From Synechococcales cyanobacterium S06 (GTDB taxonomy: Bacteria; Cyanobacteriota; Cyanobacteriia; Cyanobacteriales; JAABRE01), in the NCBI GenBank assembly GCA_011391125.1, contig JAABRE010000040.1:1-47207 (forward strand): 47,207 nt of DNA, written 5' to 3'. The position numbers and the translations under genes were made by a program. Shown here piece by piece: positions 6,236-26,990 of this stretch; positions within the stretch are counted from its first letter, which is position 1; each line of letters starts with the position of its first letter. The notes beneath the pieces are model-generated. The model saw only the letters and a list, made by a program, of their open reading frames with translations. It was not told the DNA's origin and did no database searches.

Positions 6236-6581
6236 TATATTTGTTTCCCTCTTCTTTATCTCTATTTATTGGCGATCTTTTTTTAAGAGCTAATTTTCAT
6301 TTCTTGTTTTAACCTCTCTATGATAACCTTACTTTACCTTTCTTGACCAGCCAGATTATTTATTTTTTTTTGTTATTTATTACACCTTTTCATGATCACT
6401 TTTTTATTATATTATCTTTGGCCATTTTTGGGATCGGTCAAATATCTTAAATTATTATCAACTAATTTAGCTTAAGTTATAATTGAGATCACAAATTTTC
6501 GGTGATTACAGCACAAGTAAAGCTAAAATAGAAGCAGGTATGGTAGAATTTATCTTTTTAATACCACTTTTGCTTCATCTT

Positions 6582-7262
6582 ATGACTATCAGTATTTTGC
6601 TAATCGAAAATGAAGTCAGTTTTGCTAATTTTATTAAGTTAGAACTCGAATATGCTAATTACTCTGTCACTATTTCCCATCGTGGCTTAAATGTCTTTAA
6701 TTTTAATCATAATTGTCTTTATGATTTGATTATTGTCGAACGTAATTTATCTGATCTTTCTGGTTTAGATGTCTGTCGTAAATTACGGCAATCTGGCGAT
6801 CGCACTCCCCTTATTTTACTTACCCCCCATGATAGCATTGGCGATCGGGCTGAGGCTTTAGATGTCGGTGCTGATGATTATTTAGTGAAAGATTTTACGG
6901 TGGATGAATTATTGGCCAGAATCCGCGCTCATCTTCCTTTGATTTCCAGTCCAGAATTAGGTTTAGTGGAATTATCAGATCTGAAACTTAATCGTCAGAC
7001 TAGACAAGTTTATCGAGGTCAAAGATTGCTTGAATTAACTATCAAAGAATTTGATTTACTGGAATATTTGATTTGCAATGCTAGACAAGTGCTAAGTCGT
7101 GAACAGATTTTAACCCAGGTTTGGGGTGATGATTTTAATGGGGATTCTAATATTATTGAGGTTTATATTCGTTATTTACGCTTAAAATTAGAGGCTCAAA
7201 ATGAAAAACGTTTAATTCAAACTGTTCGCGGTGTCGGTTATGTTTTACAAGAAAAATTATAG
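6582..7262 (+). CDS. OmpR-family response regulator with degenerate receiver
   Basis: From ATG 6582 (MTISILLIENE) this is a 226-residue receiver plus winged-helix regulator. A longer frame back to TTG 6483 would add 33 atypical residues, so the ATG is preferred. The DNA-binding half is normal (LTIKEFDLLEYL, a GDSNIIEVYIRYLRLKL-like recognition region, TVRGVGYVL). The receiver is not: the residue aligned with the phospho-Asp is Glu53 (LIIVERNLSDLSG), and the acidic pair reads E9-N10 instead of E/D-D. Thr (LLTPHD) and Lys103 (YLVKDF) remain. It is followed 48 bp later by a hybrid histidine kinase, probably in the same operon. A phosphorylation-independent regulator is inferred, as known for some cyanobacterial NblR-like proteins. 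Confidence 0.88.
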   Translation: MTISILLIENEVSFANFIKLELEYANYSVTISHRGLNVFNFNHNCLYDLIIVERNLSDLSGLDVCRKLRQSGDRTPLILLTPHDSIGDRAEALDVGADDYLVKDFTVDELLARIRAHLPLISSPELGLVELSDLKLNRQTRQVYRGQRLLELTIKEFDLLEYLICNARQVLSREQILTQVWGDDFNGDSNIIEVYIRYLRLKLEAQNEKRLIQTVRGVGYVLQEKL

Positions 7263-7310
7263 CTTTTCTTGCTATTTTTTTTGAGAAAAATTCTGTCAAA
7301 TTTTATTTTT

Positions 7311-10300
7311 ATGTCTAAATTAACACCAAATAAAAAAAAATCATTTTCATCACCAGATAGCTATCAACAGATAGTTGACAATATTGATCAAATTATGCTC
7401 AAAATTAATTGGCAAGGTCGTCTAAAATTTATCAATCAATCGTGGACAAAAATTTTAGGTTATAGCGAATCCGAATCAATCAATCAATATTTTCAAAAAT
7501 TTATCACAGTAAAATATAAAAATATTAAAGATAATTCTTATATAAAAACCCTGAATATTTTTCATAAAAATGGTGAGTTATTAACTTTTGAAGCTCATTT
7601 TACCAAGCAAGAAGATCAATCTTTAATCGGTATATTAATTTATAATCAAGCGAATAAACAAGAGCAATTAGAAACCATTAATTCTCGTTTAATCTCATTA
7701 ATTAAAAATTTACAATCAGGAATCTTATTAGAAGATGAAAATGGCTTAATAATTTTAGCAAATCAGGAATTTTGTCAAATATTTAATTTAGAGATTCCAC
7801 CTGAATCATTAATTAATCGTAATTGTCAAGCTCAAACCACTCCAATTATGAAAAATTTAGTAGTTGATTCGGAAAATTTTATCGAGAGAATTGAAGAAAT
7901 TATTGCAGAGAAAAAAATGATCATTAAGGAAGAAATCTTCTTACAAAATAAGCAAATTTTAGAAAGAGATTATATACCAATATTTGTGGAAGAAAAATAT
8001 TGTGGTAATCTTTGGCTTTATCGAGATATTACCACGAAAAAACGCACAGAAATCTTAATTAATACCACGACAGTAAGATTAACGGCCTTGATTGAAACTA
8101 TTGAAGCTGGTATTATTATTGAGGATGAAAATAATATAGTTGTTTTAATAAATCAAAGCTTTTGTCATTTATTTAATATTCCTCTTCTTGCTCCCATGAT
8201 GATTGGAGCAGATTTTGGCGATTTTGCGGAAGAATATCAAGAAGATTTTGTTAATCCTGAAGAATTTGTGAGACGATATCAAGAAATTATTGAAGCTAAA
8301 AAAATAGTCTCTAACGAAGAAGTTTTATTAATAGATGGCACAATTTTAGAAAGAGATTATATTCCGATATTTTTAGAAGATAAATATTATGGTCATTTAT
8401 GGATGTATCGAGATATAACAGAGAGAAAACAAGCAGAAAAAAAATTAAAAAACAATAATCAAGAATTATCAAAAGCGAAAAAAATAGCGGAAGAAGCTAA
8501 TAAATTTAAAGGTGAATTTTTGGCAACCATGAGTCATGAAATTAGGACTCCCATGAATGCTGTAATTGCCATGACTGACTTTTTATTAGATACTCCTTTA
8601 AATTATGAACAGAAAAATTTTGTGGAAACTATTAAAATAAGTGGCGAAGCTTTATTAAATATAATTAATGATATTTTAGATTATTCTAAAATTGAAGCGG
8701 GAAAATTAGAGTTAGAAAAACAATCTTTTGATTTACAATTATGTGTGGAAGAATCCGTTAATTTATTATCAATTCAAGCGGTAAATAAGGGCCTAGAATT
8801 AGTTTATTTAATCGAAAAAGATGTTCCTAATTTTATTATCGGTGATGTTACTCGACTGCGCCAAATTTTAATAAATTTAATTTCTAATGCAGTTAAATTT
8901 ACGGAACAAGGCGAAATTTCTGTTTATGTCAATGCTTTATTGGTTGATAAAACTAATAATATATATGAGTTAATTTTTACGATTAAAGATAGCGGAATTG
9001 GAATTTCTCCTAATAATTTACAACGTTTGTTTAAGTCTTTTAGTCAAGCTGATACTTCCATTACTCGTAAATATGGAGGCACCGGTTTAGGACTAGCTAT
9101 TTGCAAAAGTTTAACTGAAATAATGGGAGGTAATATTTGGGTAGAAAGTAGGGGAAATTATGGCGGAAATCCACCTCAAAATTGGCAACTTCAGGAAAAT
9201 TATCAGGAATTTGGTTCTATTTTTTACTTTACTATTCAGGTACAAAGTGACCTAAATCAGTTTAAGAATAAATGTTATTTAGAACCAAATTTATGGGGAA
9301 AAAGAATTTTAATTATTGATGAACATCCTTTTAATCGTCAGTTATTAACTCAGTTAATTGAAGCTTATGGAATGCAACCTACGGCCGTTACTTGTCAAGA
9401 AGAAGGAGTTAATTTAATTAAACATAATCACCACTTTGATTTAATTATTATGAAACAAGGAAATTTATCAACTTGGTCTGGTTATCTCAAGGAAGATCAA
9501 GCCTTTTTATTACTGGTTAAAATTAATACTAATCCCCGAATTTTGAAACAGTTTAAATTTTTATATCAACCCATTAAAAAAAATCAATTATACCAAGTTT
9601 TACAAGATATTTTTCTCGTCAATGCTCCCGTTAATGAACTAACAAATTTAGATTTGAAAACAACACCAGTAAGCAATTTAGAAATTCTTTTAGCTGAAGA
9701 TAATATAATCAATCAACAAATTATGGTATTAATGTTAAAAAAACTAGGTTATACCATTGATATTGCTAATAATGGTAAACAGGTAATTCAAGCTTTAGAA
9801 AAGATTAATTATGATGTCATTTTAATGGATTTAGAAATGCCAGAAATGGACGGTTTAACAGCAACTCGAGAAATAAAAAAATATTTTCCCCAAGAAAAAA
9901 TGCCTTATATTATCGCTTTAACTGCTTATTCTTTACCCGAAGATAAAGAAAAATGCTTACAAGTGGGCATGAATGATTATCTTACTAAACCCATTAGAAA
10001 ACCTGAATTAATTTTAGCTTTAGAACAAGCCATAAATTATAAATTTGAACAGCCTAAATTTGAACCTAAATTATTAGTTGAAAAACCAGAACTTATCTCA
10101 GAAAACACAGAAGCAATCATATTAGATTACAAAGTTTTACAGATAATTATGGAACTTGCTGAGGAAGAAGCTGAAACAATTTTAACCGATTTAAGAGAAC
10201 AATATTTTAAAGATTCAGAAATAAGATTAGGCGAACTTGATGAGGCGATCGCCAATAAAAAACCCGAAGTTTTAAAACAATTAGCCCATACTTTAAAATC

Positions 10301-10466
10301 TAGTAGTGCTAACTTAGGAGCCATAAAATTAGCGCAAATTTGTAAAGAATTAGAAACCATGGGACGCAATAATTTAATGACCAGAGAAACCGAAAATTTA
10401 GCGCAAGAATTAAACAAAGAATACCAAAAATTTAAACAAGAATTACTAAATTTTAAACCAAAATAA
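7311..10466 (+). CDS. Hybrid histidine kinase: three PAS, HisKA, HATPase, two receivers, HPt
   Basis: Numbering from ATG 7311 (1051 residues; a TTG at 7269 would add 14). PAS-like regions lie near 15-115, 125-245 and 255-375; the last two are recent-looking duplicates sharing ILERDYIPIF and LWxYRDIT. HisKA has H409 in SHEIRTP. The ATPase domain shows N (LINLISNAVKFT), G1 (DSGIGIS), F (FKSFSQAD) and G2 (GGTGLGLA) boxes. Receiver 1 has Lys715 where Asp is expected. Receiver 2 is intact with D840 (LMDLEMPEMDG). The C-terminal HPt carries H993 (AHTLKSSSANLGA). No transmembrane segments are evident, so it senses in the cytoplasm. Phosphate could run H409 to D840 to H993 and then to a separate receiver. 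A strong terminator follows immediately. Confidence 0.93.
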   Translation: MSKLTPNKKKSFSSPDSYQQIVDNIDQIMLKINWQGRLKFINQSWTKILGYSESESINQYFQKFITVKYKNIKDNSYIKTLNIFHKNGELLTFEAHFTKQEDQSLIGILIYNQANKQEQLETINSRLISLIKNLQSGILLEDENGLIILANQEFCQIFNLEIPPESLINRNCQAQTTPIMKNLVVDSENFIERIEEIIAEKKMIIKEEIFLQNKQILERDYIPIFVEEKYCGNLWLYRDITTKKRTEILINTTTVRLTALIETIEAGIIIEDENNIVVLINQSFCHLFNIPLLAPMMIGADFGDFAEEYQEDFVNPEEFVRRYQEIIEAKKIVSNEEVLLIDGTILERDYIPIFLEDKYYGHLWMYRDITERKQAEKKLKNNNQELSKAKKIAEEANKFKGEFLATMSHEIRTPMNAVIAMTDFLLDTPLNYEQKNFVETIKISGEALLNIINDILDYSKIEAGKLELEKQSFDLQLCVEESVNLLSIQAVNKGLELVYLIEKDVPNFIIGDVTRLRQILINLISNAVKFTEQGEISVYVNALLVDKTNNIYELIFTIKDSGIGISPNNLQRLFKSFSQADTSITRKYGGTGLGLAICKSLTEIMGGNIWVESRGNYGGNPPQNWQLQENYQEFGSIFYFTIQVQSDLNQFKNKCYLEPNLWGKRILIIDEHPFNRQLLTQLIEAYGMQPTAVTCQEEGVNLIKHNHHFDLIIMKQGNLSTWSGYLKEDQAFLLLVKINTNPRILKQFKFLYQPIKKNQLYQVLQDIFLVNAPVNELTNLDLKTTPVSNLEILLAEDNIINQQIMVLMLKKLGYTIDIANNGKQVIQALEKINYDVILMDLEMPEMDGLTATREIKKYFPQEKMPYIIALTAYSLPEDKEKCLQVGMNDYLTKPIRKPELILALEQAINYKFEQPKFEPKLLVEKPELISENTEAIILDYKVLQIIMELAEEEAETILTDLREQYFKDSEIRLGELDEAIANKKPEVLKQLAHTLKSSSANLGAIKLAQICKELETMGRNNLMTRETENLAQELNKEYQKFKQELLNFKPK

Positions 10467-23916: not shown

Positions 23917-24468
23917 TTAATAATTTTCGTAGCTTTTAAATACTTGAGTTGAGCCATTTTTTCCTAATGTTAAAACCTCAAAAGGTTGCTTGTTTGATGA
24001 TTCCATACCCGGTGAACCAGAGGGCATTCCGGGGACAATTAATCCTAAGCTGTTGGGTTTTTGTTTCAGGAAACGTTTAATATCTGTTGCTGGAATATGA
24101 CCTTCCATGACATAGTTGTCAATAATAGCCGTGTGACAAGAGGCTAAATTGGCAGGGATTTTATACTGTTTTTTAATGGCTTCCATCTTGTCGGTTTTAA
24201 CGTCAGTAATCTGAAAACCCTGTTTTTTGGCGTGATCTATCCATTGGTGGCAACATCCACAGGAAGGACTGCGGTAAACTGTCATGTTCATGTTTCCTGA
24301 GTAGTTTTCCTGATCTAGGTCCCAAATACTGGCTAAAGTGCTATTTTTCTGAATGTCAGTCACGGTATGAGCTTGATTAGAAGAAAAGCCAGAAGAACCC
24401 ATGATCAATATTATAGCGCCAGTAGCGGCGATCGCATTCAAGAAATAGTTTTTCCACATAATTTTCAC
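23917..24468 (-). CDS. Exported DUF411 (CopG-like) metal-binding protein
   Basis: A 183-residue protein with an N-terminal signal or anchor segment (residues 8-30, FLNAIAATGAIILIMG). Residues 62-165 are the DUF411 domain: VYRSPSCGCCHQWIDH with C70, C72 and C73, SCHTAIIDNYVMEGHIPATDI with C111, H112 and H124, and GMPSGSPGME. These Cys/His/Met groups are typical of periplasmic copper-linked proteins found with copAB operons. It acts in the periplasm or membrane; binding of copper is inferred. Ribosome-binding site AGGAG lies 8 bases before ATG. A TGAAAT-N5-TGAAAT direct repeat lies 49 bp upstream, shared with the next gene. Confidence 0.88.
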   Translation of the reverse strand: MKIMWKNYFLNAIAATGAIILIMGSSGFSSNQAHTVTDIQKNSTLASIWDLDQENYSGNMNMTVYRSPSCGCCHQWIDHAKKQGFQITDVKTDKMEAIKKQYKIPANLASCHTAIIDNYVMEGHIPATDIKRFLKQKPNSLGLIVPGMPSGSPGMESSNKQPFEVLTLGKNGSTQVFKSYENY

Positions 24469-24517
24469 TCCTAAATTACTCTTTTTTCTAGCTAATTTTT
24501 ACTATATATTATTAAAA

Positions 24518-24534
24518 TGAAATTAAGATGAAAT
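24518..24534 (-). promoter_or_regulatory. Direct repeat operator, DUF411 gene
   Basis: TGAAAT (24518-24523) and TGAAAT (24529-24534), 11 bp apart, lie 49 bp before the DUF411 start. Read on the gene's strand, a TATA-type -10 sequence (TATATA, near 24502-24507) begins about 10 bases after the repeat, so the site covers the -35 position. OmpR-family activators bind such 11-bp-spaced half sites. Confidence 0.65.
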
Positions 24535-24644
24535 TTTTTTTTTTCTATTCTATTTCATACTCAATTCCAAATTTTTGATTAAACTTTAAGAGAAGGCTAT
24601 TGTGAATAGTTTTTTAAGATAAATTAGTTCTTAAAAATAAAGAT

Positions 24645-24671
24645 AAGCAGTTAAATCTTAAATAACTGCTT
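24645..24671 (-). terminator. Hairpin after the Met/Cys-rich peptide gene
   Basis: AAGCAGTTA (24645-24653) pairs perfectly with TAACTGCTT (24663-24671) around nine bases. It lies 34 bp past the stop codon at 24705 and is followed on the minus strand by a T-rich stretch. Confidence 0.6.
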
Positions 24672-24704
24672 CACTTATGAAATAATTAATCTTTGTCTCA
24701 TTAA

Positions 24705-24929
24705 TTAAGTGCTTTTTTGCTGAGTTGTTGGTGTCTGTTGATTATTTCCTGGCATTTGGTGATTTGGCATCATATTTGACATCATATCTTTACAACAGGG
24801 ACAAGCCATCGGAGGATTATTAGGAGGATTATTGGGAGTTTGAGCATTAACAGATTGAGAATTTAAACCAACGAAAAAAAGACTACTTAATAATAAACCA
24901 AAACTAGATGTAAAAATTACTGATTTCAT
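24705..24929 (-). CDS. Small exported Met/Cys-rich peptide, probably metal-binding
   Basis: A 74-residue product with a clear signal peptide (about 1-29, FGLLLSSLFFVGLNSQSVNA). The mature part is Asn/Pro-rich and carries MACPCCKDMMSNMMPNHQMPGN: three cysteines, seven methionines and one histidine within about 25 residues, a soft-metal ligand set. It belongs to no family I can name with certainty. Context (DUF411 protein, copB remnant, adjoining two-component genes, shared operator) supports a periplasmic copper or related metal role. It is divergent from the response regulator, with 68 bp between starts. Confidence 0.75.
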   Translation of the reverse strand: MKSVIFTSSFGLLLSSLFFVGLNSQSVNAQTPNNPPNNPPMACPCCKDMMSNMMPNHQMPGNNQQTPTTQQKST

Positions 24930-24979
24930 GGTAATTACCTTTAATTTATTTACTACATTTTTATTATGGTTTTTAATTA

Positions 24980-24996
24980 TGAAATGAGGGTGAAAT
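24980..24996. promoter_or_regulatory. Direct repeat operator between the small peptide gene and the regulator gene
   Basis: TGAAAT (24980-24985), GAGGG, TGAAAT (24991-24996) repeat the site at 24518 with identical half sites and spacing. It lies 50 bp before the start of the small peptide gene, with CATAAT (about 24963-24968) as a possible -10. On the plus strand it ends one base before the regulator's ATG, and the GAGGG spacer is also that gene's ribosome-binding site. Activation of the peptide gene and repression or autocontrol of the regulator are both possible. Confidence 0.65.
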
Positions 24997-24997
24997 A

Positions 24998-25687
24998 ATG
25001 AGAATTTTATTAGTTGAAGATGAATGTGATTTAGGTTTGAGTATTAAAAAATCCCTTGAACAATCTAATTATCTTGTTGATTTTGTCATGGATGGCGAAG
25101 AGGCGTGGAATTATTTGGAAACCAATTCTCAACAATACACTTTAGCTATTTTTGATTGGCTTTTACCCAGTTTATCCGGAATTCAATTGCTGCAAAGATT
25201 ACGGAGTAAGGGTAACACTTTACCAGTTTTGATGTTAACAGCCAAGGATACTATGCAGGATAAAATCATGGGATTAGATGCGGGAGCAGATGATTACTTA
25301 GTGAAACCCTTTGGTATGGCTGAATTATTGGCCAGATTACGCGCTCTGCAACGGCGATCGCCTGCCTTAAATAATCAGCAAATGTGCTACGGTGATTTGA
25401 CGTTGGATTACAATACCTATACGGTTACTTGGAAAAAACAGGTTATATCCCTGACTGCAAAAGAGTTTCAGCTTTTAGAATATTTTATGAAACATCCTGG
25501 CCAAATTCTCACCCGTGACCAAATTTTAGACCATTTATGGACTTGGGATAGCGAAACTATCAGCAATGTTGTTGCAGCACAGGTTCGACTCCTGCGCAAA
25601 AAATTAGCAATTTATGGAGCTGATCATTGGATCGAGACTGTTTACGGTTTAGGCTATCGCTTTACTAGCGCTAAAGCGCAACAATGA
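24998..25687 (+). CDS. OmpR-family response regulator (copper/metal type, CopR/RppA-like)
   Basis: A 229-residue regulator with an intact receiver (MRILLVEDECDLG; phospho-acceptor D53 in IFDWLLPSLSG; LMLTAKD; YLVKPF) and a winged-helix output domain (LTAKEFQLLEYFMKHPGQILTRDQILDHLW, IETVYGLGYRF). It pairs with the sensor kinase 7 bp downstream. Context with DUF411 and copB points to copper; nickel (NrsR) or redox (RppA) roles described for Synechocystis relatives remain possible. The last codons after YRFTS are read from a fragment of MITE family 2, giving the tail AKAQQ. The GAGGG ribosome-binding site lies within the putative operator. Confidence 0.9.
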   Translation: MRILLVEDECDLGLSIKKSLEQSNYLVDFVMDGEEAWNYLETNSQQYTLAIFDWLLPSLSGIQLLQRLRSKGNTLPVLMLTAKDTMQDKIMGLDAGADDYLVKPFGMAELLARLRALQRRSPALNNQQMCYGDLTLDYNTYTVTWKKQVISLTAKEFQLLEYFMKHPGQILTRDQILDHLWTWDSETISNVVAAQVRLLRKKLAIYGADHWIETVYGLGYRFTSAKAQQ

Positions 25688-25694: not shown

Positions 25695-26990
25695 ATGAAT
25701 AATCAATTATTTAAACTTACACGACAACGTTTGGCTCTTTATTCTGGAGGAATGATTACCCTAATTCTTACCATGGGGGCGATCACCTTTTATGAAGCTA
25801 TCATCCACGCCCACCGTTTAACTATTGACCAAGAATTGAAAACAGTGGCAGCTACTATTCATGACGGTTTAGAAGTAATTTTGCAACAACCAGGGAAATG
25901 GGAACAGGAAGCTAGTCGGATTTTACCTGCAACGTGCGTTTTACCGAATACTTGTAGCTGGAAAACCCATAGTATTGTCAATGATAAATATTATGTGCAG
26001 TTATTCACTTTGTCAGGTAAATTGCTGGTAACAGGGGGAATGCCTGCCGTCTCTGAACAAATGAGCAATCAAGAATGGCAAACTTTAAATGATAAAAATG
26101 GTCATCGTTATCGTCAAATCTGGTTTAGTCTCCATACTCAACGCGGAGAAAATTGGGGTTATTTGCAGGTTGGACGCAGTCTTCAAGATTTTGACGATTA
26201 TATGACTAATTTAATTTGGCTTATCTTGCTAGTATTGCCGTTAATCGTAGTATTAGTAGGGATTTCAGCTTGGTGGTTAGCGGGTATTTCTATTCGTCCA
26301 TTATATCAATCTTACCAAAAAATGCAGCAATTTACTGCCGATGCCGCCCACGAATTGCGCACTCCTTTAGCTAGTTTACAGGCTACCATCGAATCGACCT
26401 CAAAGGAGGAAACAAGGGAAATTTTACCGACTTTGGATCGACAAACCAAGAGGTTGATTAATTTAGTGAGGGATTTATTAACTTTATCCCGTTTAGATTG
26501 GCAGTTAACTCAAGGAGATGAGATAGTTTTTGAAGACATTTGTTTACAGGATTTAATTAATGATTTAATCGAGGAATTATCTCCTTTAGCTTTAAAAAAG
26601 AATATTCAATTAACTGCGATAATTACTATTAGTAATGAGTTAATTATTAAAGGGATTTCTGAACAAATTTATCGTCTATTTTCTAATTTAATTACTAATG
26701 CTATTAATTACAATTATTCGGGAGGAAAAGTAACAGTAATTTTGGAAAAGATTAACCAAAAAGTTTTAATTCATATTCGAGATACTGGTTTAGGAATGGA
26801 TAATGAGCAGTTAAATCACATTTTTGACCGCTTTTATCGGATTAATCAAGCTAGAAGTCGGGATCAAGGAGGAGCAGGTTTAGGGTTGGCTATTTGTGAG
26901 GCGATCGTCAAAAATCATCAAGGTAAAATTAAAGTCAAAAGTGAGATGGGAAAAGGTACTATTTTTACGGTAGAATTTATTTTACCGTAG
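25695..26990 (+). CDS. Membrane sensor histidine kinase (CopS/RppB-like)
   Basis: A 431-residue kinase. One transmembrane helix at about 17-37 and another at 172-198 bracket a periplasmic domain of some 130 residues that contains two cysteines (TCVLPNTCSW, C81 and C87) and several His and Met that could bind metal. The HAMP region is very short. The kinase core is complete: H219 (AAHELRTPLAS), N box (LFSNLITNAINYN), G1 (DTGLGMD), and G2 (GGAGLGLAI). With the regulator 7 bp upstream it forms a classic two-component pair. Resemblance to RppB/NrsS/CopS is from memory; the ligand is inferred from neighbouring genes. Confidence 0.9.
   Translation: MNNQLFKLTRQRLALYSGGMITLILTMGAITFYEAIIHAHRLTIDQELKTVAATIHDGLEVILQQPGKWEQEASRILPATCVLPNTCSWKTHSIVNDKYYVQLFTLSGKLLVTGGMPAVSEQMSNQEWQTLNDKNGHRYRQIWFSLHTQRGENWGYLQVGRSLQDFDDYMTNLIWLILLVLPLIVVLVGISAWWLAGISIRPLYQSYQKMQQFTADAAHELRTPLASLQATIESTSKEETREILPTLDRQTKRLINLVRDLLTLSRLDWQLTQGDEIVFEDICLQDLINDLIEELSPLALKKNIQLTAIITISNELIIKGISEQIYRLFSNLITNAINYNYSGGKVTVILEKINQKVLIHIRDTGLGMDNEQLNHIFDRFYRINQARSRDQGGAGLGLAICEAIVKNHQGKIKVKSEMGKGTIFTVEFILP

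Follow-up and report, generated by a model that had tools for sequence, protein, structure and literature searches.

Direct repeats beside a CopR-type two-component system as probable copper operators of a DUF411 gene and a gene encoding a small Met/Cys-rich secreted protein

Activators of the OmpR/PhoB family, as exemplified by PhoB-type pho box promoters, bind to direct repeats with an 11-bp step and in this way replace the –35 element of the promoter. In Synechocystis sp. PCC 6803, the regulator CopR was reported to bind the promoters of copMRS and copBAC (PMC4284471) and its published motif, as quoted in PMC4182526, is TTCATN4-5TTCAT. The 72-nt promoter of copM contains two direct repeats and a start point located 26 nt upstream of the start codon (PMC4890671). 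On pSYSX, we find the repeat upstream of copM (L114:8336, matching 14 of 14 positions of the family motif) and of the adaptor gene of copBAC (L114:11043). The two TTCAT elements at copM are 6 bp apart, compared to the published spacing of N4-5, with the full repeat (L114:8336-8353) reading ATTTCAT-N4-ATTTCAT.

The locus described here resides in a stretch of 47,207 nucleotides, termed the window, and its features are compiled in Table 1. A response regulator gene is followed at a distance of 7 bp by the gene of a sensor histidine kinase, and both proteins score above the NCBIfam cut-offs that define the RppA/CopR-type two-component family. The regulator shares 64.6% identity with CopR from pSYSX and 55% with NrsR, and the kinase 44% with CopS from pSYSX and 41% with an NrsS-like kinase. 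The recognition helix of the regulator (SNVVAAQVRLLRKKL) differs in a single residue from the one of Synechocystis CopR (SNVVAAQVRLLRRKL), while the helix of a paralogue encoded in the same genome (EETVKSHLKSLRHKL) is strongly different. In the tree of regulators, the window protein is not firmly placed within the family, whose membership does not fix the metal since the same NCBIfam family holds the nickel-responding NrsR. Elsewhere in the window (6483-10466), another OmpR-family response regulator precedes a large hybrid histidine kinase with two TTG-start ORFs, a pair that is unrelated to the copper genes.

Table 1. Features of the locus, with positions counted from the first letter of the window.
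Feature	Position	Strand	Basis and remarks
DUF411 gene, secreted CxCC-type protein	23917..24459	-	PF04214; ATG 24459, GTG 24468 possible
–10 hexamer TATAGT of the putative DUF411 promoter	24501..24506	-	Sequence; register as in 109 promoters of relatives
Putative CopR-type operator 1, ATTTCAT-CTTA-ATTTCAT, upstream of the DUF411 gene	24517..24534	-	14/14 match to family motif
Gene of 74-aa secreted Met/Cys-rich protein (MACPCCKDMMSNMMPNHQM)	24705..24929	-	ORF
Possible weak third operator, ATTTCAT-GGTA-ATTACCT, pointing to the regulator operon	24923..24940	+	12/14 match; tentative
–10 hexamer CATAAT of the putative Met-rich gene promoter	24963..24968	-	Sequence; register as in relatives
Putative CopR-type operator 2, ATTTCAC-CCTC-ATTTCAT, upstream of the Met-rich gene	24979..24996	-	13/14 match
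Response regulator, RppA/CopR family	24998..25687	+	NF041734, 368 bits (cut-off 250)
Sensor histidine kinase, RppB/CopS family	25695..26990	+	NF041735, 522 bits (cut-off 400)

An exact search of the window for TGAAAT-N5-TGAAAT recovered the motif at both places where it had been predicted, at 24518-24534 (TGAAATTAAGATGAAAT) and 24980-24996 (TGAAATGAGGGTGAAAT), with no further mismatch-free copy in the 47 kb. The two operators had been described as identical, which holds for the half sites and their 11-bp step, whereas the 5-bp spacers differ (TAAGA vs GAGGG). On the minus strand, which also carries the target genes, both sites read ATTTCA(T/C)-N4-ATTTCAT. Both contain the TTCAT...TTCAT direct repeat of the copM type, with the first half of site 2 carrying TTCAC in place of TTCAT, and the suspected likeness to copper-regulator sites of Synechocystis is thus borne out by the same repeat upstream of copM and the copBAC adaptor gene. 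Site 1 is the sole match in the window to all 14 positions of the family motif. By chance, as estimated with a second-order Markov model built from the window, 0.02 exact pairs would be expected over 47 kb and about 0.001 over the 529 bp that contain both sites, where two are observed. The plus-strand sequence at 24923-24940 is the only other window match of at least 12/14; it could serve the regulator, with about two matches of this quality expected per window by chance, and we regard it as tentative since there is an overlap between its first half and the Met-rich start codon. A search against Rfam at gathering thresholds detected no structured RNA in the region.

The –10-like hexamers noted in the original prediction are present, each located 10 bp past the repeat on the minus strand and both in one register. 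The proposed distance of about 50 bp to a minus-strand start also agrees with the sequence, as the end of site 2 is separated by 50 bp from the ATG of the Met-rich gene (24929), and site 1 by 49 bp from the GTG at 24468 or by about 58 bp from the ATG at 24459, the latter of which has the better-placed Shine-Dalgarno sequence. Since a sigma-70 scan of the region gave only matches at the level of shuffled sequence and no plus-strand promoter that passed, our assignment of promoters relies on comparison with related loci. These were obtained from a scan of genome contigs using the window regulator, which provided 80 loci, and from a search of 60 relatives. When hexamers recurring at a fixed step were counted without bias within 300 bp upstream of the 80 regulators, ATGAAA and ATTTCA with a step of 11 were found in 15 and 14 loci, respectively, while every other hexamer, at any step tried, was found in at most four. 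The pattern ATTTCAT-N4-ATTTCAT, subsequently referred to as the box, matched 112 times in 110 loci, compared to at most 13 matches for any other gap between 0 and 12, a single match for the backward pattern and 0–4 in Markov simulations. Nearly all matches in the loci scanned (117/120) fall outside long ORFs. Once aligned, the boxes display a conserved promoter consisting of ATTTCATCYTRATTTCAT, 7 bp, TG, one base and CAAnCT, in which the extended –10 element is conserved in a fixed register (TG at positions 26–27, A at 30 and T at 34). The hexamer occupies positions 29–34 at both window sites as well as in 109 promoters of relatives, 99 of which carry A at its second and T at its sixth position, and with the published start point of copM (PMC4890671), the –10 element of this promoter also lies where it does in the window. 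The TG one base before the hexamer, a criterion derived in the present analysis rather than a published one, is found in 90 of the 109 promoters and is absent from the other 19, as it is from both window promoters. Without it, the window –10 elements are closer to TATAAT than those of the Synechocystis cop promoters, and the mean match to TATAAT is slightly better in the 19 promoters devoid of the TG (3.3) than in those containing it (2.7), which may point to a trade-off between both elements.

Among the genes preceded by the box, 32 encode DUF2808 proteins, 23 regulators of the same family, nine CusB/HlyD adaptors and nine DUF305 CopM proteins; the remainder encode outer-membrane efflux proteins, RND pumps (CusA), a multicopper oxidase, a DUF326 protein and others, as assigned by Pfam. 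Judged by these assignments, the genes downstream of the box form a copper set, which includes the regulator itself. The secreted DUF2808 proteins (L028:3376-3970 and 31 similar loci) are the commonest behind the box (32/105), which suggests a role in the copper response. A contig labelled Candidatus Gracilibacteria (L024) carries a regulator grouping among the cyanobacterial sequences, and this contig is probably mis-binned.

With the stricter pattern ATTTCATCNNNATTTCAT, the motif was detected in 33 of 41 genomes containing a close CopR-like regulator but in only one of 19 genomes that do not, among the 60 genomes compared (Fisher p 2.6e-8, a value that, owing to the relatedness of the genomes, does not refer to independent events). 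The sole motif-positive genome of the second group contains 11-bp units ATTTCATCACA arranged in tandem (G048:C306:1821-1871), which probably constitute a repeat rather than operators. At DUF411 loci of the same order, a box matching at least 13/14 positions is found within 400 bp upstream in six of 30 cases, compared to about 0.02 expected from the Markov rates of the window; five of the six originate from one family of genomes and four are linked to an RppA gene. In four loci of this family (L228, L229, L230 and L231), DUF411 is clustered with RppA and with RppB or what remains of it, in three of them followed by a Met/His-rich secreted protein, with separate boxes for the DUF411 and the Met/His-rich gene, and the window gene set thus recurs in another order.

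The DUF411 product of the window matches PF04214 with an E-value of 6.1e-26 and 90 bits (cut-off 27), whereas the 74-residue protein has no match in Pfam or NCBIfam. Its composition and the analogous box-preceded Met/His-rich genes beside DUF411 in related genomes make it a probable periplasmic copper binder. This analogy relies on composition and position because no significant homology was found: a relationship to its counterpart at L014 was rejected in the absence of a significant alignment, and so was homology within the order, where matches in other genomes were marginal (E 0.004 to 0.009). Together, the DUF411 protein and the Met/Cys-rich protein probably both bind copper in the periplasm.

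In the scan of the genome suggested in the original prediction, three exact copies of TGAAAT-N5-TGAAAT were found in 4.81 Mb and thus not many random occurrences. The third copy is located on another contig inside a coding ORF of 92 residues and was rejected as a further target. Perfect matches to a fuller form of the motif are confined to the two window sites, and allowing for one mismatch resulted in 21 matches compared to 23 for the backward control. Being at control level and mostly inside ORFs, these one-mismatch copies were rejected as targets, and no promoter-like context was apparent among the other ones examined. The single DUF305 gene and several RND pump genes of this genome show no box of at least 13/14 in the stretches read around them, for which reason the regulon would be small, and a gene set of the copMRS/copBAC type of Synechocystis was not found under the box in this genome.

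We conclude that the repeats are very probably operators of the adjacent CopR-type regulator, which would activate the DUF411 and Met-rich genes from separate promoters in response to copper. The proposed link to the neighbouring regulator is supported by its family, its recognition helix, the repeats in Synechocystis, the published motif and the co-occurrence of motif and regulator. Where the sites, the –10 register, the regulator family, the conservation in cyanobacteria and the co-occurrence are features of the sequences, binding, activation rather than repression, the copper signal and the functions of the targets would provide their best explanation, with the copper signal, phosphorylation and activation carried over from CopRS. 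In the suggested mechanism, the partner kinase would sense periplasmic copper and promote phosphorylation of the regulator, which would then bind to the two half sites head-to-tail, one helical turn apart. Bound in this manner, the regulator would occupy the place of the –35 element and recruit RNA polymerase to the –10 element at its fixed distance of 10 bp, thereby switching on both target genes, each from its own promoter.

Other explanations were considered. The region is very AT-rich and one-mismatch forms occur in the genome at control frequency, as would be expected if the repeats had arisen by chance in intergenic DNA. Such an origin is hardly conceivable and was rejected, given the Markov expectation for a stretch in which both sites are in register with a –10 element, the counts in 110 loci relative to their controls and the independent discovery in relatives of a motif that tracks the regulator. 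It is also very unlikely that the sites belong to a different OmpR-family regulator, for instance the paralogue encoded on contig C101: although regulators of this family commonly bind direct repeats with steps near 11 bp and paralogues of about 47% identity are present, the divergence of the paralogue helix argues against this assignment, as does the lack of the motif in 18 of 19 genomes with only distant paralogues, the exception being the tandem array. The lack of the TG in both window promoters, the missing box in the stretches read around the DUF305 and RND pump genes and the report of another RppA motif (AAMAWCTCYYWCCCC) for sll0797 (PMC13421787) count against CopR operators. With operators and regulator unchanged, the signal might instead be nickel or several metals, in line with the near-identical recognition helices of NrsR and CopR within one NCBIfam family, a similar repeat before an RND gene that is divergent from an NrsR-like regulator in G035 and CopR-like sequences between nrsRS and nrsBACD (PMC4182526). 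We consider this unlikely, since regulator and kinase are both closer to CopR and CopS than to their NrsR and NrsS-like counterparts, the Met/Cys-rich and DUF411 targets are of the kind expected of ligands for the soft ions Cu(I) and Ag(I), and a DUF411 protein of P. aeruginosa responds to copper (PMC6444534).

A separate question concerns the regulator itself. As anticipated, site 2 overlaps its ribosome-binding site, with the GAGGG (24986-24990), which precedes the ATG at 24998 by 7 nt, forming the spacer between the half sites. Feedback on the regulator through operator 2, for which this overlap is only a hint, might have either sign. The main role of operator 2 could be to allow the bound regulator, from within its own leader, to block its own transcription, as the operator spans the Shine-Dalgarno sequence in a gap of just 68 bp between the Met-rich gene and the regulator gene, and a plus-strand TATTAT (24962-24967) overlaps the minus-strand –10 element so that both promoters could exclude each other. 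We regard this as rather doubtful, since the orientation of the operator and the register of its –10 element match the divergent Met-rich gene in the same manner as at site 1, which lacks a divergent regulator, and since no plus-strand promoter passed the sigma-70 scan. In 23 relatives, the regulator gene is placed directly behind a box on the same strand, which suggests positive autoregulation there, whereas operator 2 of the window faces away from the regulator. Somewhat speculatively, and with low odds in our view, the copper operator may have moved into the regulator leader in this lineage, where overlapping face-to-face –10 elements would make transcription of effector gene and regulator operon mutually exclusive and convert the positive autoregulation of CopR into negative feedback.

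The CopR motif and this type of switch are already known, and the window is a well-supported further example. Modestly new are the DUF411 and Met-rich targets, the promoter logo extending across cyanobacteria, as compared to the openly licensed literature, and the operator in the regulator leader. Two poorly characterised types of proteins, DUF411 and small secreted Met/Cys-rich proteins, are hereby tied to a cyanobacterial CopR regulon, and the pattern ATTTCAT-N4-ATTTCAT, 7 bp, TG-N-CAAnCT gives access to copper regulons in genomes for which no measurements exist. The DUF2808 proteins provide one testable prediction of this pattern, and the overlap of operator and ribosome-binding site a small, checkable case of gene order altering the feedback of a regulator.

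In comparison to described systems, the window operators share the 11-bp step with the pho box but differ from it in half site and signal. The Synechocystis system NrsRS (RppAB) with its targets nrsBACD belongs to the same NCBIfam families and has nearly the same recognition helix as the window proteins, while differing in its lower identity, its response to nickel and the absence of any DUF411 or Met-rich target that we could see. A repeat similar to that of the window (TTTTCACCTGAATTTCAT, L136:3488-3505) is found upstream of an RND gene fragment divergent from an NrsR-like regulator, and a nearly identical site may thus be common to the branches for copper and nickel within the family. In CopRS, the targets are the DUF305 protein CopM and an RND pump and the regulator is co-transcribed with a target, whereas the window combines DUF411 and a small Met/Cys-rich protein as targets with a regulator that is divergent from its target; yet both systems resemble each other in the families of regulator and kinase, the direct repeat itself and its step, and the register of the –10 element.
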